Shown here: positions 16,680 through 29,047 of the stretch, in pieces
How the letters are laid out: the number at the start of each line of letters is the position of its first letter
How positions within the stretch are numbered: the first letter of the stretch is position 1
Source of the DNA: Pseudohongiella sp.
GTDB lineage: Bacteria > Pseudomonadota > Gammaproteobacteria > Pseudomonadales > Pseudohongiellaceae
Reading direction: 5' to 3'
DNA: 64,000 nucleotides
NCBI RefSeq assembly: GCF_011050365.1
Contig: NZ_DRFV01000016.1
Location: 171,549-235,548 of the forward strand
The notes under the pieces: model-generated
The model's input: the letters and a program-made list of their open reading frames with translations, nothing else
Database searches by the model: none
What the model was told of the DNA's origin: nothing
Made by a program: the position numbers and the translations under genes

Positions 16680-19016
16680 TCAATTGACGGGTGTGCGCCG
16701 TTGGCGGGACTGAAATTGCTCGCGTGCTTTTTCCAGACGGGACAGCAATACCGGTAGAAATGTCAGATCCAGAATCAGCGCGAGTACTACAATCGGCACC
16801 AGTAAGCGTGCGGCCTGTTGAAAATAAAGTGTGCTCGCCAGCAGCAAAATCAGTGCGCCCAGAGTCAACACGGCCGTAGTAATGGTCAGTGCCGGCCCGG
16901 CTTTTGTGATCGCTGCCTGAATGGCATGCTCCACGTCCAGGCCTTGCTGGCGCTGGCGTTGATACGTGCTCAGAATATGTACGGTATCATCGACCACCAG
17001 GCCGATGCTGATGCTGAACAGCATCATGACAAAGGGATCCACGGTGCCTACCAGAAGCCCCCAGGCACCAAATACCAGCGTCGCAGGTAGCAAATTGGGT
17101 ATCACGCTGACCAGCCCGAAATACAGACTGCGCAGACCAATGCTCAGTGCAATGGTAATCATTAGCAGGCTGATCAGGTAACTCTGGATCAATTCGACTG
17201 TGACCGTTTTGTCCATACGCGCGAACAGCAGTGTATTGCTGCCATGCAGGAGTCGCATGTTCTGATCTGCAAACGTGTTCCGAAAATAGTCTCCGATGGC
17301 CAGGTCAAGGTCTATGAGGCCCTGGTTCGTTAGCGGTGTTGTGGTAATGAAAAACCGGATGGTCGAAAAATCCGCGTTTATGAAGTTGGACAGCGCGTAA
17401 CTGTCCCGTTGCACAGAGACATAGTTCATCAAATGCTGCTCCACCATATCGACGGAATCGGGCAGGCGGTAATTGTCCACTCCATCGCCTGCCTGTGATC
17501 CTTCGAGCGTATCGTTGATGGTTTTTACCACTTCAACAAGACTGGCCACCTCAAGTACGTCTTCACGCTGGCGTAGCCAGCCGGAGAATTCGTCAACCCG
17601 CTGCAGGAATTCGGGCTCAATCGCGCCATCGGGTCGCACGCCTGAAGGGGTGGTGGCAACGATGCCATAGTTCATGCCCGTGCCGCGCTGCATGCGCTCA
17701 TTGAGCAGGGCGTAATAGGCATGCAGGGGAGAGTCCTGATCGATGAAGTCCAGGCGATTAAAATCCGGTTTGTTCAGTGGTAGCAGTGCTGCGGCGATGA
17801 CTCCGGCCACGATGACACCGGTAAATATCAGACGGTCGTATCTCGCCACCAGGCGTTGGCTGAAGCGCAGAAAAGCGCCGGCCAGCCTGACTTCACCAGC
17901 GGGGCCGCCGACTGCCATAACCAGTGCCGGAAAACACAGGAAGCTTAGCAGCCACGCAAACATGACGCCCAGGGCGACGATGGTGCCGAACTGGCTGATG
18001 GCAGGTGCTGACGCATAGTTGAGACTGGCGAAACCAATGGCGGTGGTCAGGGCTGCCAGTGACACCGGGCGCAAGTTGAACGCCAGGCTGTGACGCATGG
18101 CCATGGCCGCCGATGCCGCGCCGGTCAGTTGCTGGCGATAGACTGACAGAATATGTGCGGTGTTGGCGACCGCTATGATAACAACGACCAGAGGTGCCAT
18201 GACCGAAACGCTGTTCAGTGCAATGTCGGCCCAGGCCAGGGTGCCGATAGTGCAGGTGATTGTCAGTAGCGTGATCAGCAGGATACAGGCGCCATGGCGA
18301 ACGGATTGGAAGCAGTAACAGATGAACAGTACGCACAGCAGTATCACCAGGGGCAACAAGCGTGTCAGGTCCCGGATCATGGCGTCGCGGGTAGAGGTTT
18401 CAAACAGTGCCTCGGCGCCGGGCGCAAAGGTTATATCCGGGTGCGCGGCACGCAGGTCACCCAGCACGGCGTCGATGCCATCGGCGATTTCGCGATTCTG
18501 TGCGGAGTTGCTTGTGCTCAGCGTAAGCTGGGCGGAGAACAGTGCGAGGTCGGCATTGGGTGATACCAGGATGCCGTTTATGAACTGGTCGGCCATGGCT
18601 TTGTCGCGTGCTGCCGCCATGGCGTCCGCGCTGACCTCATGGAAGTTGCGAAAGCGTCCCGGGAACAGACCGATTTCGCCAAACGGGGAGTCGTACGCCA
18701 CCACTGAGCTGGCCCGGCCGGTATAAGGTATGCGCCGATACTCACGGTGCAGTGCACCCAGTGCTTCAAGTATGGGGGCAGAAAAAACATCAGTAGTCCC
18801 CGATGCTGCAATGACCGCAATGCTGATGTCCTGCCGGCCGGGAAACTCGGCGGCCAACTGGTCGCGTTCGCTGACGTAGGGATCGTTATCGCCCAGCAAC
18901 ACAGACACCCGGGTGTCAAAACTGATGGCAGGTATGGCAATGGCCAGTACCGTTGCCATGATCAGGCTAATAACCAGCCAGAGCGCACGATAGTTGATCA
19001 GAATTCGAGGTATCAC
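16680..19016 (-). CDS. RND superfamily (MMPL-type) exporter
   Basis: A 778-residue inner-membrane protein with the RND layout: one membrane helix, a large periplasmic loop, a membrane bundle, then the same again. The fourth-helix motif appears as VVDDTVHILS near the C-terminus, the form seen in MMPL/HpnN-like exporters rather than in multidrug AcrB. Such proteins move lipids, hopanoids or other hydrophobic compounds outward. No membrane fusion or outer membrane partner lies next to it. It starts with GTG in a four-base overlap with the stop codon of the LysR gene, so the two genes are probably translationally coupled. Confidence 0.85.
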   Translation of the reverse strand: MIPRILINYRALWLVISLIMATVLAIAIPAISFDTRVSVLLGDNDPYVSERDQLAAEFPGRQDISIAVIAASGTTDVFSAPILEALGALHREYRRIPYTGRASSVVAYDSPFGEIGLFPGRFRNFHEVSADAMAAARDKAMADQFINGILVSPNADLALFSAQLTLSTSNSAQNREIADGIDAVLGDLRAAHPDITFAPGAEALFETSTRDAMIRDLTRLLPLVILLCVLFICYCFQSVRHGACILLITLLTITCTIGTLAWADIALNSVSVMAPLVVVIIAVANTAHILSVYRQQLTGAASAAMAMRHSLAFNLRPVSLAALTTAIGFASLNYASAPAISQFGTIVALGVMFAWLLSFLCFPALVMAVGGPAGEVRLAGAFLRFSQRLVARYDRLIFTGVIVAGVIAAALLPLNKPDFNRLDFIDQDSPLHAYYALLNERMQRGTGMNYGIVATTPSGVRPDGAIEPEFLQRVDEFSGWLRQREDVLEVASLVEVVKTINDTLEGSQAGDGVDNYRLPDSVDMVEQHLMNYVSVQRDSYALSNFINADFSTIRFFITTTPLTNQGLIDLDLAIGDYFRNTFADQNMRLLHGSNTLLFARMDKTVTVELIQSYLISLLMITIALSIGLRSLYFGLVSVIPNLLPATLVFGAWGLLVGTVDPFVMMLFSISIGLVVDDTVHILSTYQRQRQQGLDVEHAIQAAITKAGPALTITTAVLTLGALILLLASTLYFQQAARLLVPIVVLALILDLTFLPVLLSRLEKAREQFQSRQRRTPVN

Positions 19017-19927
19017 TGATCAGGCCCGTAAGTTCCAAAGGTGCCTGCATTGTCTTCCTGGCACAGGGCGATCCAGTTGCGGATACCGGTGCTGCGGAAT
19101 TTCTGTTTATGCAGGATAAAGTAGAAGCGTCGCATCCAGTCACGTTGTGGCGCATACAGAGGCAGCAGACTGCCGCGGCGGAAAGCTTCCTGCAAGGTGA
19201 TACGTGACAGGCAGCCAATGCCCAGACCTGCTTCAACGGTGCGTTTGATGGCCTCGGTGTGTTGCAGCTCCAGGCGCAAATTGAGCTTGGGCATCAGGCC
19301 ATACATGGCGTGCTCAAAGGCCTGCCGGGTACCTGAGCCGGCCTCCCGGATAATCCAGTCCGCACTCACCAGGTCATCATCGCTGAGCGTCGGTCGTCCG
19401 GCCAGTGGGTGATCCGGAGCGCAAAACAGACTGAGTTCGTCGTCGCGCCAGGGAATGACCTCCAGCGTGGCATCCTGCAGTTCCCCTTCAACCAGACCGA
19501 TATCGAGCTCGAAATTACGCACCCGCTGGGTGATCAGTGACGTGTTTTCTACTGTCAGATCAACGCGTGAGCCGGGATAGCGGTTCATGAAATCGGCCAT
19601 GATCGGCACCGCCAGATAGTTGCCAATGGTCAGGGTTGCGCCCACCTTGATGTGGCCGACCTCACCCTGCCGTGCCAGCAGTTGTTCAAATTCGGTGGCC
19701 TGGTTCAGCAGCGCGACCGCATGGGGGCGCAAACTCTTACCAAAATCATTGAGCTGCAGACGTTTGCCGACGCGGTCGAACAGCTGCATGTCGAAGCGCT
19801 GTTCCAGCTCCTTCAGGGCCGCACTGGCAGCGGACTGGGACATGGACAGGCTGTCTGCGGCGTGCGAGACGTTCTCATGCCAGGCAGTTGCCAGGAAAAC
19901 TTCGATCTGCCGCAGTGTATAATGCAT
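19013..19927 (-). CDS. finR: LysR-family regulator, FinR/YeiE-like
   Basis: A 304-residue LysR-type regulator with HTH segment SHAADSLSMSQSAASAALKEL and an effector domain of the CysB/YeiE type (VGATLTIGNYLAVPI). It is divergent from the ferredoxin-NADP reductase gene. In Pseudomonas, the LysR protein FinR occupies this position and activates fpr under superoxide or sulfite stress. The name rests on that shared arrangement and on sequence type, not on a computed match. GAGG lies seven bases before the ATG. The downstream RND gene overlaps its end, so it may share the finR transcript. Confidence 0.8.
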   Translation of the reverse strand: MHYTLRQIEVFLATAWHENVSHAADSLSMSQSAASAALKELEQRFDMQLFDRVGKRLQLNDFGKSLRPHAVALLNQATEFEQLLARQGEVGHIKVGATLTIGNYLAVPIMADFMNRYPGSRVDLTVENTSLITQRVRNFELDIGLVEGELQDATLEVIPWRDDELSLFCAPDHPLAGRPTLSDDDLVSADWIIREAGSGTRQAFEHAMYGLMPKLNLRLELQHTEAIKRTVEAGLGIGCLSRITLQEAFRRGSLLPLYAPQRDWMRRFYFILHKQKFRSTGIRNWIALCQEDNAGTFGTYGPDQ

Positions 19928-20070
19928 GTCAGCGCCTCGCGGTGTGTTATCGTTATTTTCGATTAACCTTATAGTATTAAATCATTTTACTGGTATAGCG
20001 GCACGGTTTACCATGCATGCATCAAAATTTTTCATCTCAATTTTTATTCGACGTTTTACGGGATTTTGAA

Positions 20071-20841
20071 ATGGCTGCAATATCCAAGCAAAGTGTAACC
20101 AGCGTTCATCACTGGAATGAAACCCTGTTCAGTTTTACCACAACCAGAGATAAAGGTCTTCGCTTCGAAAATGGTCATTTTGTTATGGTCGGCATGGAAG
20201 TTGAGGGTCGACCGCTGATGCGTGCGTATAGCATTGCCAGCGCGAATTACGACGAAGAGCTGGAATTTTTCAGCATCAAGGTGCCTGATGGTCCGCTGAC
20301 TTCGCGTCTGCAGGACATCAAAATCGGCGACGAGCTGCTGGTCAGCAGCAAACCCACCGGCACGCTGGTGGCGGACCATCTGCTGCCGGGACGCAACCTC
20401 TACCTTGTGGGCACGGGCACAGGCCTGGCGCCTTTCATGAGCATTATCCGCGACCCGGAAATCTATGATCGCTTCGAAAAGATCATTCTTGTCCACGGCG
20501 TGCGCCGGGTAGTGGATCTGGCTTACCGTGACTATATTACCAATGAGCTACCGCAGAATGAGTTTTTTGGTGAGGAGGTCAGCAAACAGTTGATCTATTA
20601 TCCTACGGTAACCCGTGATCCGTTCGAGAATCAGGGCCGCGTCACGGATGTTCTGGAAAATGGCGCCATGGCACGGAAAATTGGTCTGCCGCAGCCCACG
20701 CCCGATCATGATCGATTCATGTTGTGTGGCAGTCCTACGATGCTCAAGGACATGTGCCGGATTCTGGATGATGCGGGCTTCAAAGAATCCCGCCACGGTA
20801 TTCAGGCGGAATATGTGATAGAGCGTGCGTTTGTGGAATAA
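20071..20841 (+). CDS. fpr: Ferredoxin-NADP(+) reductase
   Basis: A 256-residue flavoenzyme that moves electrons between NADPH and ferredoxin or flavodoxin. FAD-binding motif RAYSIAS, NADP-binding motif GTGTGLAPF, LCGSPTM and a short aromatic-containing tail are all present, and the length matches the usual bacterial Fpr of about 257. An upstream in-frame ATG exists at 20017, but 20071 matches the family start. The only upstream aid is a weak GGGA. FinR-like LysR gene 19013-19927 is divergent and is the likely activator. A strong intrinsic terminator follows about 50 bp after the stop. Confidence 0.93.
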   Translation: MAAISKQSVTSVHHWNETLFSFTTTRDKGLRFENGHFVMVGMEVEGRPLMRAYSIASANYDEELEFFSIKVPDGPLTSRLQDIKIGDELLVSSKPTGTLVADHLLPGRNLYLVGTGTGLAPFMSIIRDPEIYDRFEKIILVHGVRRVVDLAYRDYITNELPQNEFFGEEVSKQLIYYPTVTRDPFENQGRVTDVLENGAMARKIGLPQPTPDHDRFMLCGSPTMLKDMCRILDDAGFKESRHGIQAEYVIERAFVE

Positions 20842-21944: not shown

Positions 21945-24473
21945 ATGCGTTCGACACTTTCGCGTTGGTACAGTGCCCTGGTCTTTGACAGACCCTGGCT
22001 GGTGATCGTTTTATTGCTGCTCGCTGTGGCGGGCTTTGGCTGGTATGCCCAGGATTTCAGGCTGGATGTGTCTGCAGATTCCCTGTTGATGGAAGATGAC
22101 AAGGAGCTGGAGTATACCCGCGAAGTCAGTCAGCGCTACGGCGCCACCGATTCGGTGACGATTGCATTCACGCCACGCAACATGGATTTGCTGAGCGATG
22201 AGTCGCTGGCGATCATGGCAGATATACGCGATGACCTGTTAGAACTGGAGCGTATCGAAACAGTCAACAGTCTGCTCAATGTGCCCATTTTTGGTGACAC
22301 GCCGCTGACCGGCATTTCTGAAGACTACGCCACCATTACCGATGATGATATTGATCGGGAAGCGGCACGACAAGAGCTCAGGACGAACCCGGTATTCAGT
22401 AACGCCGTGATCAGTCCGGACGGCACCACCGGTGCCATGCTGGCGAGCTTTCAAGAGGACACGCGATACATAGAGCTGATCAACCGCCGCACCGAGTTGC
22501 GCAATCAGCGCGAAGCCGGCGGACTTACGGAGGCAGAGGCGCAGGAACTGGAACAGGTGTCGGAGCAGTTTGATGCCTACAGTGCGCAAGCCGCTGAGCT
22601 TCGGCATCAGGACATTGCCGCCATCCGTGAGATTCTGTCCAACTATGACGACGAGGTGCAGCTCTATCTGGGCGGCGCGCCGATGATTGCCGATGATCTG
22701 GTGACATTTGTACAGAACGATCTGGCGACGTTCAGCCTGGGTGTTTTTGCTTTTATTGTGATTGCATTGGGCCTCATATTCCGGCGCTTGCGCTGGGTGT
22801 TGCTGCCCCTGGCCTGTTGTGCTGTCGCCGGTGTAATTGTGGTGGGTATTTTGGGCTTCATGGACTGGAAGGTGACGGTGGTCTCCTCCAATTTTATGTC
22901 GTTGCTGCTGATTATCACCATATCGCTGACCGTGCATCTGATGGTGCGCTATCGCGAACTGCGGGCCAGCCGCCGCTTCAGCAAGCAGCAAAAGATCGTT
23001 CGCCATGCGGTTCGGGCGATGTTTTTGCCTTGCCTGTATACGGCGCTGACAACCATCGTCGCCTTCGGTTCACTGGTAGTCAGTGGCATCACGCCGATCA
23101 TTTCCTTCGGCTGGATTATGGTCATGGGCGTGCTCACCGCACTGATAGTGGTATTCCTGCTGTTCCCGGCCATGATGAGTCTGTTGCCCGCGGAAAAACG
23201 TGAGCGGCCCAAGGCCATGCGTGCCAGCTTTACCGCGCTGCTGGCAAAGGCCACTGACAAGCTCGGCAACAAGTTGTTGTGGGTCTACGCCCTGGTATTC
23301 GTCGTCAGCGCAATTGGCATTACCCGGCTGCAGGTGGAGAACAGTTTTATCTCCTACTTCAGTGAAGACACGGAAATCTATCAGGGCATGAAGCTGTTCG
23401 ACGAAAAGCTGGGTGGCACCCTGTCGTTTGATGTTGTGGTCAGGCTGGCTGATGATGCGGCGTCTGATGACGGTTTTGATGACGGTTTTGATGACGGTTT
23501 TGATGACGGTTTCGATGACGGTTTCGATGATGGCGGTGCGGGGGATGACAATCCCTACTGGTTCACTGCCGACAAGATGAATCGAATCGAGCGTATGCAC
23601 GAATTCCTGGATGAGCACCCGCAAACCGGCAAGGTACTGTCGTTCGGTGCTGTGGTGCAACTGGCGGAGGAGCTCAACGGAGGCGAGGTTGACAGCTTCC
23701 TGTGGGCGCTGTTGTACACCATGTTGCCGGAAACGCTGCGCTCGACCGTGCTGACGCCATTTGTTGCGATCGAGGAAAACGAGATCCGTTTTAATGTTCG
23801 TGTTATCGAGTCTGATCCTGACCTCAATCGCAATCAGTTGATTGAGGATGTGAGGACCGGTATGCAGGAGAACTTTGGCCTGGCGCCGGAGCAGGTGAGC
23901 GTCACCGGCACCCTGGTGCTGTACAACAATGTGCTGCAAAGCCTGTATCAATCCCAGATTCTGACGCTGGGTGTGGTGCTGGCCGCGATCATGCTGATGT
24001 TTCTGGCCCTGTTCCGCTCCCTGAAGATTGCGGTTATCTGCATCATTCCGAACATCATTGCTGCCGCTCTGGTGCTGGGCATCATGGGCTGGCTGGCAAT
24101 CCCGCTGGATATCATGACCATCACCATCGCCGCGATTTCAATTGGCATTGGCGTCGATAACACCATTCACTACATGCACCGGTTCCGGCGCGAATTCCAT
24201 CGCATTGGTAACTACCGGCAGACTATGTTCTATTGCCACAGCAGCATCGCCCGCGCCATGTACTTCACATCACTGACGATTGTGGCGGGCTTCTCGATAC
24301 TGGTGCTGTCAAACTTTATCCCGACCATGGTGTTTGGTCTGTTGACCAGTGTCGCGATGCTGGTTGCACTGCTGGGTGCGCTGACGCTGTTGCCGCAACT
24401 GCTGATCGCGTTCAGGCCGTTGGGTGAAGAGTCTCATCCCGGGGCTCAGCAAGTGTCGGGCGTGGTATCATAG
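21945..24473 (+). CDS. RND superfamily (MMPL-type) exporter with an acidic DDGF repeat
   Basis: An 842-residue inner-membrane exporter with two RND halves. Helix motifs include ISIGIGVDNTIHYMHRF in the second half, typical of the MMPL/hydrophobe-exporter group. The second periplasmic loop carries a low-complexity acidic stretch, about residues 508-531, made of five perfect Asp-Asp-Gly-Phe repeats and one degenerate copy, coded by a 12-bp tandem repeat. No membrane fusion or outer membrane component is adjacent. The ClpP-like gene follows about 70 bp later on the same strand. It is only distantly similar to the RND protein at 16680-19016. Substrate unknown. Confidence 0.85.
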   Translation: MRSTLSRWYSALVFDRPWLVIVLLLLAVAGFGWYAQDFRLDVSADSLLMEDDKELEYTREVSQRYGATDSVTIAFTPRNMDLLSDESLAIMADIRDDLLELERIETVNSLLNVPIFGDTPLTGISEDYATITDDDIDREAARQELRTNPVFSNAVISPDGTTGAMLASFQEDTRYIELINRRTELRNQREAGGLTEAEAQELEQVSEQFDAYSAQAAELRHQDIAAIREILSNYDDEVQLYLGGAPMIADDLVTFVQNDLATFSLGVFAFIVIALGLIFRRLRWVLLPLACCAVAGVIVVGILGFMDWKVTVVSSNFMSLLLIITISLTVHLMVRYRELRASRRFSKQQKIVRHAVRAMFLPCLYTALTTIVAFGSLVVSGITPIISFGWIMVMGVLTALIVVFLLFPAMMSLLPAEKRERPKAMRASFTALLAKATDKLGNKLLWVYALVFVVSAIGITRLQVENSFISYFSEDTEIYQGMKLFDEKLGGTLSFDVVVRLADDAASDDGFDDGFDDGFDDGFDDGFDDGGAGDDNPYWFTADKMNRIERMHEFLDEHPQTGKVLSFGAVVQLAEELNGGEVDSFLWALLYTMLPETLRSTVLTPFVAIEENEIRFNVRVIESDPDLNRNQLIEDVRTGMQENFGLAPEQVSVTGTLVLYNNVLQSLYQSQILTLGVVLAAIMLMFLALFRSLKIAVICIIPNIIAAALVLGIMGWLAIPLDIMTITIAAISIGIGVDNTIHYMHRFRREFHRIGNYRQTMFYCHSSIARAMYFTSLTIVAGFSILVLSNFIPTMVFGLLTSVAMLVALLGALTLLPQLLIAFRPLGEESHPGAQQVSGVVS
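23466..23537 (+). repeat. 12-bp in-frame tandem repeat coding Asp-Asp-Gly-Phe
   Basis: GATGACGGTTTT occurs three times, GATGACGGTTTC twice, then a degenerate GATGATGGCGGT. The copies are codon-aligned within the RND gene, so gain or loss of a unit would not shift the frame. Confidence 0.95.
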
Positions 24474-25234: not shown

Positions 25235-25663
25235 TTACTGCAATTTGATAAACCGGGCCTGCTGATTCCGCACCAACGTACAAACCACATGATAATCCGG
25301 CTGACAGGACATTGAGCGCACGACCGCCGTTTCCGGGCTGGTCAGCTGCACCATCACTTGAGCAACCACGCCCTGATAACTGACTTCCACGGTGCCACTG
25401 CTGCCATTGATCAATCCTTCGCCAGCTTGCCATTCTATGCCTGCCGGTCGCAACGGCTCCAGCCTGAAATTCGTCCCTGACGGTAATACCAGTAACGTGA
25501 AATCGGTATCTTCCGCCTGCCACTCGCCGTGCCAGATTCCGGGGTCGCTCAGTTCGTCGGCGTGAATGCTGACAGAGGTTGCCAATAACAGTGCGGCCAG
25601 CAGGCCTGTCATGACTGAAGGCCGCGTGTCGGGATTTGAGGTGTAGAGTCTTGAATCGGGCAT
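25235..25663 (-). CDS. Small exported protein of unknown function
   Basis: A 142-residue protein with a hydrophobic N-terminal segment ending SIHA, consistent with export. The mature part starts ELSDPGIWHGEWQAE, is rich in beta-type residues and has two cysteines close together (SCQPDYHVVC) that could form a disulfide. I recognise no family. An internal ATG at 25612 would shorten the signal region; the ATG at 25663 has AGGT upstream. A minus-strand promoter and terminator lie 140-300 bp upstream (25802-25957), so this gene may be controlled by attenuation. Confidence 0.6.
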   Translation of the reverse strand: MPDSRLYTSNPDTRPSVMTGLLAALLLATSVSIHADELSDPGIWHGEWQAEDTDFTLLVLPSGTNFRLEPLRPAGIEWQAGEGLINGSSGTVEVSYQGVVAQVMVQLTSPETAVVRSMSCQPDYHVVCTLVRNQQARFIKLQ

Positions 25664-25801
25664 TTTCTACTGTTACCTGTCGCAGTCAGCCGATGGAGCG
25701 CGGAGTATAACAGTTATTCCAACAGATACGAAAAGTGCAACCGGGCGGGTTGATGACCACATTCAGGGCCGACCAATCAGGAACCACAGAGAGCACCAGC
25801 T

Positions 25802-25838
25802 AAAAAAAGCCGGAACGATTTTTGGGAATCGTCCCGGC
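25802..25838 (-). terminator. Intrinsic terminator reading away from oxyR
   Basis: In minus-strand RNA, GCCGGGACGAUU pairs with AAUCGUUCCGGC over 12 bp including one G-U wobble. The loop has six bases and seven U residues follow. The plus-strand copy has an A-C mismatch at the wobble and no T tract, so the minus strand is the functional one. Confidence 0.85.
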
Positions 25839-25922
25839 CAAGAGGGAGCGTACAATCAGAATTGGTACACGGGTCAATCATGCCTTCCTGCGAGCACTGA
25901 CAAGTCATCATTAGTCGCAATG
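25802..25922 (-). ncRNA. Candidate small RNA divergent from oxyR (or attenuated leader)
   Basis: The minus strand upstream of oxyR holds a promoter-like pair (25957-25929), about 120 nt of predicted transcript and an intrinsic terminator at 25838-25802. This is the position that the oxidative-stress RNA OxyS has beside oxyR in E. coli; similar sequence is not claimed. A 34-codon frame (25881-25777) starts after AGGAAGG but runs through the terminator, so a leader peptide controlling the gene at 25235-25663 is the main alternative. No expression evidence is available. Confidence 0.45.
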
Positions 25923-25928
25923 AGGAAC

Positions 25929-25957
25929 ATCATACGGCGGGCAGGTGAATAGATAAA
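25929..25957 (-). promoter_or_regulatory. Candidate promoter divergent from oxyR
   Basis: On the minus strand TTTATC (25957-25952) and TATGAT (25934-25929) are separated by 17 bp. The -10 is good (five of six) and the -35 poor, as expected for an activated promoter. Predicted transcript start is about 25922. Confidence 0.45.
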
Positions 25958-25985
25958 ATGAATTAAATGTATTAAAGTGATATGT
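25949..25985. promoter_or_regulatory. Possible OxyR operator, partial match
   Basis: Two 15-bp units (25949-25963 and 25971-25985) are separated by seven bases, as in the OxyR pattern ATAG-N7-CTAT repeated. The first has ATAG, the inner T and A, and GAAT; the second has ATTA and ATGT. The match is partial and the region is AT-rich. It overlaps the -35 of the divergent promoter. Confidence 0.3.
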
Positions 25986-26047
25986 ATTATGTATCGTAAT
26001 AATTTTTCACCTGAGACCACGTTCCACAGCTGTCATGAGGAGTTGCA

Positions 26048-26950
26048 ATGAACCACCTGCCTACCACCAAACAACTTCGGTATTTTGTTGCGCTGGAACA
26101 ATATGAGCATTTTGGCAAGGCCGCAGAATCATGTTTTGTGTCTCAGCCAGCCTTCAGCGTTGCGATCAAAGAGCTGGAGAATATGCTTAATATTCAGCTT
26201 GTTGATCGCACTAACAAAAATGTCACAGTGACCAGTCTGGGGCGCGATATCGCTCGCCAGGCCAGGGTGGTGCTGCGCGATCTGGAAGACATGGTCGATA
26301 TTGCACGGGGTAACCAGGCTCCCCTGACCGGACAACTTAAACTGGGCGTGATCCCGACCATTGCGCCGTTCCTGCTGCCCAAACTGCTGCCAGCACTGCG
26401 CAAATCCTACCCGGAGTTGAAACTGTACCTGAAAGAGGATTTGACCGAGCGCGTCTATGATCGTCTGATGGACGGAGAGCTCGACCTCATTCTGATTGCG
26501 CTGCCGTATGAGTTACGCAACGTGACCGATATGCCTTTGTTCGATGACCACTTTTATCTGGCGCACCACCAGCACAGCGCGTTTGTCGACCCGAGCCGTT
26601 ACAATATGAATACTTTGCCTACGGACAGCATTCTGCTGCTGGAAGATGGCCATTGTCTGCGGGATCATGCTCTGTCTGCGTGCAATATCAAGAATGCCGA
26701 CAAGGTCAGTAGTATTACGGCGACCAGTTTGCTGACCCTGGTGCAAATGGTGGATGCCGATTTGGGTATCACTTACCTGCCGGAAATGGCGGTCAAGTCA
26801 CCCTTGCTGAAGAATACCCGAATCAAAACCATTGCCATGGATGACAGCAGTTATCGACAGATCGGTCTGGTTTGGCGCAAGGCCAGCACACGGCGCGATG
26901 AGTTCGAAATGTTGGGAAATTTTATCAAGCGGCATTATCAGGCGGGATGA
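26048..26950 (+). CDS. oxyR: Hydrogen peroxide-sensing LysR regulator OxyR
   Basis: A 300-residue LysR-type regulator. HTH segment HFGKAAESCFVSQPAFSVAI and an OxyR-type effector domain are present. The redox pair is intact: Cys203 in EDGHCLRDHA and Cys212 nine residues later, the same spacing as E. coli Cys199 and Cys208, followed by TATSLLTLVQMV and GITYLPEMAV as in OxyR. It should sense peroxide by disulfide formation and activate antioxidant genes. GAGGAG lies six bases before the ATG. No katG or ahpC is adjacent. Instead the copper monooxygenase fusion follows by 114 bp, and a divergent promoter unit lies upstream. Confidence 0.92.
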   Translation: MNHLPTTKQLRYFVALEQYEHFGKAAESCFVSQPAFSVAIKELENMLNIQLVDRTNKNVTVTSLGRDIARQARVVLRDLEDMVDIARGNQAPLTGQLKLGVIPTIAPFLLPKLLPALRKSYPELKLYLKEDLTERVYDRLMDGELDLILIALPYELRNVTDMPLFDDHFYLAHHQHSAFVDPSRYNMNTLPTDSILLLEDGHCLRDHALSACNIKNADKVSSITATSLLTLVQMVDADLGITYLPEMAVKSPLLKNTRIKTIAMDDSSYRQIGLVWRKASTRRDEFEMLGNFIKRHYQAG

Positions 26951-27064: not shown

Positions 27065-29047
27065 ATGAGCATCCATATAAATATCATCAATACCCTGGCA
27101 TCGGTTGCCAACAGGGCAGTCGCCGCTCCTCTGGCGTTTGCCGTGATCCTGACTGCCGGCCTGGCCGGCGTCAGCGCTGTCGCCGATGAAGCGCCGGTCA
27201 CCCGCGCGTCCGACTTCACGTTGATTGATCAGCATGGCAAGGCGTTTAACCTGCATTACCATGAGCAGGTGCCGGCCATCGTATTGATGGGGCATCAGAA
27301 TGGCGCTGCCGCGGTGGATGCGGCTGTTGACGGTCTCAGCGAGCAATGGGCGGAGCAGGGCGTCGTGTTTGCTCTGCTTAATCCGGTTCCGCAAGAGTCA
27401 CGTGCTGACATTCTGGCTGATACACAGCAACAGGGTCTGCAACTGCCGGTATTAAAAGATGAAGCAGGCCTGGTCACTGAAACGCTGGCGTTGAACCATG
27501 TCGCCGAGGCGCTGGTGATTGAGCCCGGTCGCTGGCAGATTGTATATCGCGGCCCGGCAAACAGCGCCGAATTCACAGCAACATTACAAGCGCTGCTGGA
27601 TGGCGATAATGTTGAACTGACCGCGCAGGCGATGCCTGCGGATGCCAGATTGTTGTCCCGTCATGCCCCCGTCACGGATATCTCCGACACCATGTACAGC
27701 GACACAATAGCGCCCATGCTGGTAGAGAAGTGCGCCGATTGTCACCGTCCCGGCGGCATCGGACCGTGGGCAATGACCAACCATGCGATGATCCAGGGCT
27801 TCTCCCCGATGATTCGTGAAACCGTTCTGACCAAGCGTATGCCGCCGTGGCACGCAGACCCGGAGATTGGTGAATTCCTGCATGATCTGAGCCTGAGTGT
27901 CGACGAAGCCCGGCAGCTGGTGTCCTGGATCGATGCCGGTGCGCCGCGCGGTACCGGCGAGGATCTGCTGACCAGCGTGAAGGCTCAGGATACAAAGTGG
28001 GAAATGGGTGAGCCTGATCTGGTGGTCACGCTGCCGAAATTTGATATTCCGGCGACCGGTACGCTGGATTACCAGTTCTTTGAAGTGAAAAACCCGCTGG
28101 ATCATGATGTCTGGGTGCGCGCCGTACAGGTCGCCCCGGGTGACCGGCAAGTGGTGCACCATGCCATTGCAACGTTTGGTGCCAGTTCAAACACAGCGGG
28201 GCAGTCAAACAGTGGAGCATCGCTGTTCCAGCCACAACTGATGACCTTTGTGCCCGGGAACGAGACCTATGTATATCCGGACAACACCGGTGTCTATGTG
28301 CCTGCGGGAACGTCTTTCTACACGCAGATGCACTACACCACCTACGGTCGCGCCACCAGTGATGAAACCCAGATCGGTCTGTACTTCAGCGATGAGGCGC
28401 CAGAACACGTGCTGCAACACTTCTCGATTCTTAACCCCGAGCTGCGCATCCCCCAGGGTGCGGCCGAGCACGAGGAAACGGCGTATTATCAGTTCCAGCG
28501 TGATGCGGTTATTTACAGCCTGTTCCCGCATGCCCATTATCGGGGCCGCGCGTCCGAGTTCGCGATTCGCTATCCTGATGGGCGCGAGGAAGTGGTGTTG
28601 TCGGTACCCAACTACGACTTCAACTGGCAGCGTTACTTCCAGTTCGAAGAGCCCATTGAGGCGCCTGCCGGCACGTTTGTCATCCATCGCACGGTGTATG
28701 ACAACTCGACCGCCAACCTGAGCAATCCGGATCCGTCAGTCAATGTCAGGTTCGGCGAGCAGACCTGGGAAGAGATGCTGTATGGCGGCATTTCCTTCCG
28801 CTATGAGGAGCCGGGTGAGAGCGACTTCGAAGTCAATGAAGATGACTACATGGCGGCACTGGCGATGGGTTTCATGGACCTGAACATGGATGGCAAAGTG
28901 GCGTTGAATGAAATGCCTGAGCAGGCAAGGCAGGCGTTGGCGCTACCCTTCACCATCATGGATCGTGACAAGACCCAGGGGCTGGAATACCCCGAGTTCC
29001 GTGAGTTCATTATCAAGAGCGACATGATGAGTAACAGCGCATTCTGA
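27065..29047 (+). CDS. Redoxin-cytochrome c-type II copper monooxygenase-EF-hand fusion protein
   Basis: A 660-residue exported protein (signal ends near SAVADE). In order: a redoxin-like domain (about 45-190) that has lost its cysteines, a haem motif CADCH (Cys223, Cys226, His227), and a copper monooxygenase domain resembling peptidylglycine and dopamine monooxygenases. The likely copper ligands are His365-His366 in QVVHHAIA, His423 in TQMHYTTYG, His489 and His491 in FPHAHYRG, and Met571 in WEEMLYGG. Two EF-hand loops end the protein (Asp605-Glu616, then DRDKTQGLEYPE). It should hydroxylate a periplasmic substrate using copper and oxygen. GGAG lies nine bases before the ATG. It follows oxyR by 114 bp. 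Confidence 0.82.
   Translation: MSIHINIINTLASVANRAVAAPLAFAVILTAGLAGVSAVADEAPVTRASDFTLIDQHGKAFNLHYHEQVPAIVLMGHQNGAAAVDAAVDGLSEQWAEQGVVFALLNPVPQESRADILADTQQQGLQLPVLKDEAGLVTETLALNHVAEALVIEPGRWQIVYRGPANSAEFTATLQALLDGDNVELTAQAMPADARLLSRHAPVTDISDTMYSDTIAPMLVEKCADCHRPGGIGPWAMTNHAMIQGFSPMIRETVLTKRMPPWHADPEIGEFLHDLSLSVDEARQLVSWIDAGAPRGTGEDLLTSVKAQDTKWEMGEPDLVVTLPKFDIPATGTLDYQFFEVKNPLDHDVWVRAVQVAPGDRQVVHHAIATFGASSNTAGQSNSGASLFQPQLMTFVPGNETYVYPDNTGVYVPAGTSFYTQMHYTTYGRATSDETQIGLYFSDEAPEHVLQHFSILNPELRIPQGAAEHEETAYYQFQRDAVIYSLFPHAHYRGRASEFAIRYPDGREEVVLSVPNYDFNWQRYFQFEEPIEAPAGTFVIHRTVYDNSTANLSNPDPSVNVRFGEQTWEEMLYGGISFRYEEPGESDFEVNEDDYMAALAMGFMDLNMDGKVALNEMPEQARQALALPFTIMDRDKTQGLEYPEFREFIIKSDMMSNSAF

Follow-up and report, generated by a model that had tools for sequence, protein, structure and literature searches.

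A conserved small RNA divergent from oxyR in Pseudohongiella, predicted to be OxyR activated and a counterpart of OxyS

The window, by which we mean the whole 64-kb stretch of DNA analyzed here, is part of contig 16 of a 3.63-Mb genome and carries oxyR on the plus strand at 26048-26950. The predicted product of 300 amino acids has both redox cysteines of the regulatory domain, C203 and C212, which fall within an OxyR-type motif, GHCLRDHALSAC. Its top NCBIfam match is PRK11151 OxyR (243.6 bits, below the cut-off of 329), and the solved structures closest to it are OxyR proteins (best E 1.9e-69). Among named records, those nearest to it are two MAGs, whose OxyR proteins have 96-97% identity to this one, and four entries named Pseudohongiella, with 84-85% identity. 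No second OxyR match above 28% identity was found in the window's genome. Two relatives do have a further OxyR-type gene (44-45% identical), accompanied on the opposite strand by a gene for a katG-type peroxidase (G008:C5:178673-181040 and G010:C1:743876-746249); approximately 560 nt separate the matched stretches.

On the 3' side of oxyR, the frame at 27065-29047 has sub-threshold AhpC/TSA and cytochrome-type matches and an end that reads as EF-hand-like; a frame whose N-terminus resembles that of its product is also present 3' of oxyR in several relatives. On the other side, the minus strand encodes an exported protein (25235-25663) that yielded no NCBIfam match (E up to 0.001) and no Pfam match (E up to 0.1). 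This gene lies 3' of the RNA described below and outside the RNA unit, and is preceded by a separate -10, TATACT with TGT in front (25704-25709, minus strand). Farther away are a gene for an MMPL-family membrane protein with a tandem DDGF repeat (21945-24473) and a LysR-type gene (19013-19927, minus strand) divergent from a ferredoxin-NADP reductase-like gene (20017-20841, plus strand), both named from frame reading. The latter pair resembles the FinR/Fpr pair of pseudomonads, and a partial OxyR/LysR box lies between the two genes at about 19947-19996 (14 of 20 positions; score -6.8 with the operator matrix introduced below).

Between the exported-protein gene and oxyR we predict a small RNA transcription unit on the minus strand (25802-25922), with its 5' end at about 25922, its 3' end at the U-run and a length of approximately 121 nt. 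Its promoter, as read from the sequence, consists of a -35 hexamer TTTATC (25957-25952), a 17-nt spacer and a -10 hexamer TATGAT (25934-25929). Within the RNA, alignment of homologues revealed a conserved GGAAGG motif (25883-25888) and a conserved UCCCUCUUG segment (25839-25847), a candidate seed that lies directly 5' of the terminator. The terminator stem-loop (25808-25839) has 13 pairs and the apical loop CCCAAA (25826-25821), and runs into a tract of seven U (25802-25808). The promoter coordinates (25957-25929) and the predicted span agree with an earlier note on this DNA, which had described a minus-strand TTTATC-N17-TATGAT promoter and a transcript of about 120 nt; its count of seven U also holds, and its 12-bp stem becomes one of 13 pairs. 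The preference of that note for the minus strand is borne out by folding: the 41-nt minus-strand hairpin reaches -21.1 kcal/mol, a value equaled by none of 200 shuffles, versus -17.1 kcal/mol, equaled by 2 of 200, for the plus-strand version with its mismatch. When 10 or more contiguous pairs, five or more of them G-C, and six T were required, no other terminator was found on the plus or the minus strand anywhere in the 64 kb of the window. A generic scan of 2.2 kb returned three promoter-like and three terminator-like sites, versus 2.3 and 2.1 expected, and left the TTTATC-N17-TATGAT promoter unlisted; by itself, therefore, the predicted promoter is unremarkable, and its weight comes from conservation.

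That conservation was assessed by comparing the sequences upstream of 19 oxyR orthologues (identity of at least 78%). Their common layout consists of an operator block that aligns without gaps, a -35 and a -10 separated by a drifting spacer of 17 or 18 nt, the short GGAAGG motif, a segment reading CCCUC or CCCUU, and the terminator. A hairpin with a U-run was present in 18 of the 19 regions (degraded in L019) and the promoter in 17; as exceptions to the layout, the terminator is missing in L017 and degraded in L019, and the -10 is poor in L015 and L019. A covariance model, R1, was built on 18 of the regions, and the window RNA, itself a member of the training set, scores 77.7 bits with it. The model matched 24 of 137 genomes of the family, six of them outside the training set, and every match adjoins an oxyR orthologue, divergent from it and directly upstream. 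An orthologue of this oxyR is found in 28 of the 137 genomes (E 1e-130), or 29 when a genome with a partial gene adjoining the RNA (G067) is counted, and the RNA is kept in 26 of these 29. Two genomes without a family-search match, G069 and G074, have weaker local matches of 27.9 and 25.8 bits; G011 has lost the terminator (18.8 bits), and G070 and G071 (loci L079 and L080) have lost the RNA. Among the 26 RNA-bearing loci, 24 have a TA...T-type -10, at a spacing of 17 nt in 16 loci and 18 nt in eight, a proper -10 being absent in L015 and L019. The length of the RNA is approximately 74-125 nt in most relatives.

The terminator stem covaries, although one of the measures applied is modest. In an alignment of 26 sequences fitted to model R1, 90% of the pairs form, seven of nine pairs have both partners changed in at least one sequence, and double-changed cells number 42, versus a shuffled mean of 12.7 (none of 500 shuffles as high). 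When the partners were slid as a control, pairing dropped from 90% to 28-45%. A weaker covariation measure, concerning further pair types, gave 16 versus 13.5, with 25 of 500 shuffles as high, and RNAalifold on a separate alignment of 18 sequences likewise found double changes in seven of nine pairs. Promoter and stem, whose lack of conservation in relatives would have refuted the earlier note by its own terms, are both kept. The motifs outside the stem are retained to differing degrees. The U-tract comprises six to eight U in all 26 homologues; GGAAGG, whose conservation exceeds that of any other stretch in the 5' part, is exact in 16, and GGAAG or GGAAAG is present in 19; CCCUC or CCCUU lies just 5' of the stem in 25, with ACCUC in the remaining one; and CCC falls within the predicted apical loop in 22. 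A conservation profile over nine of 14 genus loci (L013, L014, L015, L017 and L019 were left out, and L012 is incomplete, which lowers the identity behind the -10) gave a mean pairwise identity of 0.91 at 25975-25952 and 0.55-0.70 in the terminator. Identity falls to 0.02-0.11 directly behind the terminator (25795-25736) and climbs again to 0.38-0.58 at the promoter of the next gene. As judged from these alignments, conservation is confined to the predicted promoter, two short motifs and the terminator, with drift elsewhere in the RNA.

We also searched beyond the family. In 390 genomes sampled from the order, searched with stringent filtering and scoring of 10 candidates in each, nothing convincing was seen outside the family: of 10 matches, seven came from the genus itself, and the three outside it have no oxyR within about 1.5 kb and look like unrelated terminators (judged on one place per genome, with two further places in G274 left out). 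OxyS (Rfam RF00035), a classic stress sRNA of Escherichia coli, is peroxide induced, Hfq dependent and divergent from oxyR, and its family criteria include regulation of nusG, fhlA or rpoS. No Rfam family matched this RNA at the gathering threshold in the window or in seven relatives. Between 25780 and 26050 there were seven matches, all below the gathering score, the best of which (P31, E 0.19) is on the other strand. OxyS is absent among the matches at E up to 10, and membership in its family was rejected; SorX, the sole bacterial sRNA family matched on the minus strand, reached 12.2 bits versus a gathering score of 46.6 and was rejected as well. Like OxyS, the RNA described here is short, ends in an intrinsic terminator and is divergent from oxyR; unlike OxyS, it has other conserved motifs, shows no sequence match and occurs in three genera of another family. 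The earlier reading of an OxyS analogue outside enterobacteria thus stands with regard to place and promoter, but not in the sense of an OxyS homologue by sequence. According to one paper, the enterobacterial clade has 603 potential homologues of OxyS, every one within the oxyR 5' intergenic region (PMC5793797). Pseudomonas stutzeri has an oxidative-stress RNA named NfiS (PMC6755748, PMC6761216). We recognized no paper on an RNA divergent from oxyR outside enterobacteria in the literature searched, whose coverage is thin for subscription journals, making this weak evidence.

Control of the RNA by OxyR is suggested by a conserved, AT-rich operator block (25952-25999) that abuts the RNA's -35. 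Using the OxyR consensus as quoted in PMC10580950, we found the best match in the window at 25958-25994, directly upstream of the -35; 15 of the 20 fixed positions of the four ATAG-type elements agree, and 4 of 2000 first-order Markov blocks were equally good. The partial operator claimed previously is therefore present, abutting the -35 rather than overlapping it. A scan of the genome with the operator pattern returned three matches, versus one for the reversed control. Two of the three overlap each other and coincide with this operator; the other has three mismatches, lies beside ribosomal-protein genes and was judged to be due to chance.

A 50-column operator matrix derived from 29 oxyR/RNA operators was then applied to other peroxide genes of the genus. 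Upstream of ahpC (the frame VSLINTEVKPF with start GTG, named from frame reading and a PF10417 match), 13 of 15 loci score at least 3.7, with 18.7 in this genome; two are below zero, and for one more, L135, the top-scoring site was found on the opposite strand. In all but one of the 15 loci, a distance of 197-211 nt separates the best site from the FTFVCPTE-type motif that follows it. The ahpC promoter was readable in 14 loci (all except L141), and in each of these TATNNT follows 17 nt past the -35, which is TTTACC in 11 loci and a variant in three. Control loci gave no sites: none of 12 other peroxiredoxin loci (best -6.4) and none of 30 ferritin-family loci (best -11.9) matched, and the best site elsewhere in the window scored -6.8. 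For katG, four of 20 fetched loci, a set smaller than all katG of the genus, score at least 0.9 and 16 are negative, including the one fetched from this genome (-4.1, no match). Because the matrix finds the box at 13 of 15 ahpC loci and at none of 30 ferritin-family loci, the RNA is very probably OxyR activated, as far as operator sequence can tell. Moreover, since the ahpC promoter has the same operator and layout, the RNA promoter is of the same make, with the difference that the ahpC promoter drives a protein gene, whereas the RNA promoter is predicted to drive a terminated RNA only. In G070 and G071 the -10 was lost along with the RNA and the operator was kept, suggesting that oxyR, too, needs this operator.

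The divergent slot was also read in 13 more distant OxyR loci (L026-L036, L047 and L048), whose OxyRs may be paralogous. In 12 of them (L028 being unclear) it holds a dps-like, peroxiredoxin-like or rubrerythrin-like gene, as named from frame reading, indicating that a peroxide gene frequently occupies this position. The OxyR proteins of L047 and L048, 58-60% identical, are the closest of the outside OxyR proteins. Their dps-like genes have the same promoter layout in the divergent slot as the RNA, with weaker operator matches (13.2 and 6.2); unlike in the RNA unit, the promoter leads straight into the protein gene. The operator score at a third related OxyR locus, L049, was -9.6. A promoter of the L047/L048 type is a possible source of the RNA promoter.

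We considered whether the same features could belong to something other than a free-standing RNA. The earlier note had offered an attenuated leader, in which the promoter would serve the 25235-25663 gene, the hairpin would terminate transcription in a regulated manner, and a 34-codon leader peptide might be made. The strand and order of the elements fit this arrangement, and the 34-codon frame is indeed present in the window; that frame is not conserved, though, and no reading frame is common to the 17 loci examined. Nor does the downstream gene appear to depend on the RNA promoter: among 15 loci from genera g1 and g7, 14 have a -10 for this gene, TGNTATACT, and the exception, L015, favors the leader. 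In genus g5 a different frame lies directly downstream, TGNTATACT is found in none of four loci, and the RNA and its terminator are retained. A leader should keep the same downstream gene in relatives without a second promoter, which is not the pattern observed, and near-zero conservation between the terminator and the downstream gene's promoter also speaks against it. From the separate -10 and the displacement of the gene in genus g5 we conclude that the unit is not an attenuated leader, an explanation to which we give very little probability. A transcript always running into 25663, which the earlier note had named as grounds for dropping its reading, is likewise unlikely given the retained terminator and the separate conserved -10.

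The GGAAGG motif lends itself to two further explanations. It resembles a Shine-Dalgarno sequence and in some loci is soon followed by ATG or TTG, as would be expected if the transcript were an OxyR-dependent mRNA with GGAAGG as the ribosome-binding site of a very short frame; yet the 17 loci agree neither in start codon nor in frame, length or product, and some have no start codon close behind GGAAGG, or an immediate stop. We regard such a small-protein mRNA as highly improbable. Alternatively, an OxyR-driven RNA might act without Hfq-assisted pairing, either by titrating a protein through GGAAGG or by interfering in cis with oxyR transcription. The lead of GGAAGG in conservation of the 5' part, together with target searches that gave none, is compatible with this, but the motif is exact in only 16 of 26 homologues, versus 25 of 26 for the C-rich segment before the stem, and interference would presumably need no covarying terminator 120 nt away. 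This explanation, too, seems unlikely to us, if somewhat less so than the other two.

Returning to the free-standing RNA, we searched for its targets. Duplex tests versus 5' regions were no better than chance would allow, with 41 of 200 shuffles equally good for oxyR, 160 for the downstream gene, 103 for ahpC and 40 for katG. A seed-plus-ATG pattern occurred at no place in this genome; across 15 genomes of the genus, the seed-plus-start-codon pattern occurred at 16 places in eight genomes, versus nine for the reversed control, and the matched sequence was different at each. We infer that the UCCCUC segment and the loop CCC are candidate seeds. The loop C's are predicted to be mostly open (mean unpaired 0.80-0.92) and the UCCCUC segment only half open (0.34-0.60). 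The genome has an hfq gene, and the 3' end of the RNA is U-rich.

Our best reading is that the RNA is an independently evolved counterpart of OxyS in Pseudohongiella and two other genera, and probably an Hfq-dependent sRNA. On sequence grounds we take it to be a real, conserved, non-coding RNA that is OxyS-like in its predicted circuit and outside the OxyS family by sequence. In the proposed circuit, oxidized OxyR would activate the RNA promoter from the operator abutting the -35, the same block also serving the regulation of oxyR itself, and the RNA would accumulate upon peroxide stress. Hfq would bind its U-rich 3' end, and its C-rich segments (UCCCUC before the terminator and the loop CCC) would pair with G-rich translation-start regions and repress the target mRNAs. 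We hold it to be likely, with reasonable confidence, that the minus strand at 25922-25802 specifies such a free-standing RNA of about 121 nt, divergent from oxyR, OxyR activated and repressing target mRNAs.

The OxyS homologues described in PMC5793797 are enterobacterial; the RNA reported here is a putative counterpart in a marine bacterium and its relatives. Its 26 homologues provide a set for computing conserved targets, and the locus suggests a search recipe for other genomes, namely an oxyR divergent slot with an OxyR-type promoter and a terminator, and without a gene. If the proposal is true, circuit design would have converged in a clear-cut way: the place beside oxyR that OxyS occupies in enterobacteria would be taken here by an RNA of unrelated sequence with an OxyR-type operator. 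We see about an even chance that OxyS evolved at least twice, once when, among the ancestors of Pseudohongiella and of two other genera in its family, an OxyR-dependent promoter of the ahpC/dps type in the divergent slot took on the transcription of a terminated, C-rich RNA that represses mRNAs under peroxide stress; the oxyR neighborhood would then be a recurrent cradle of peroxide-response sRNAs.
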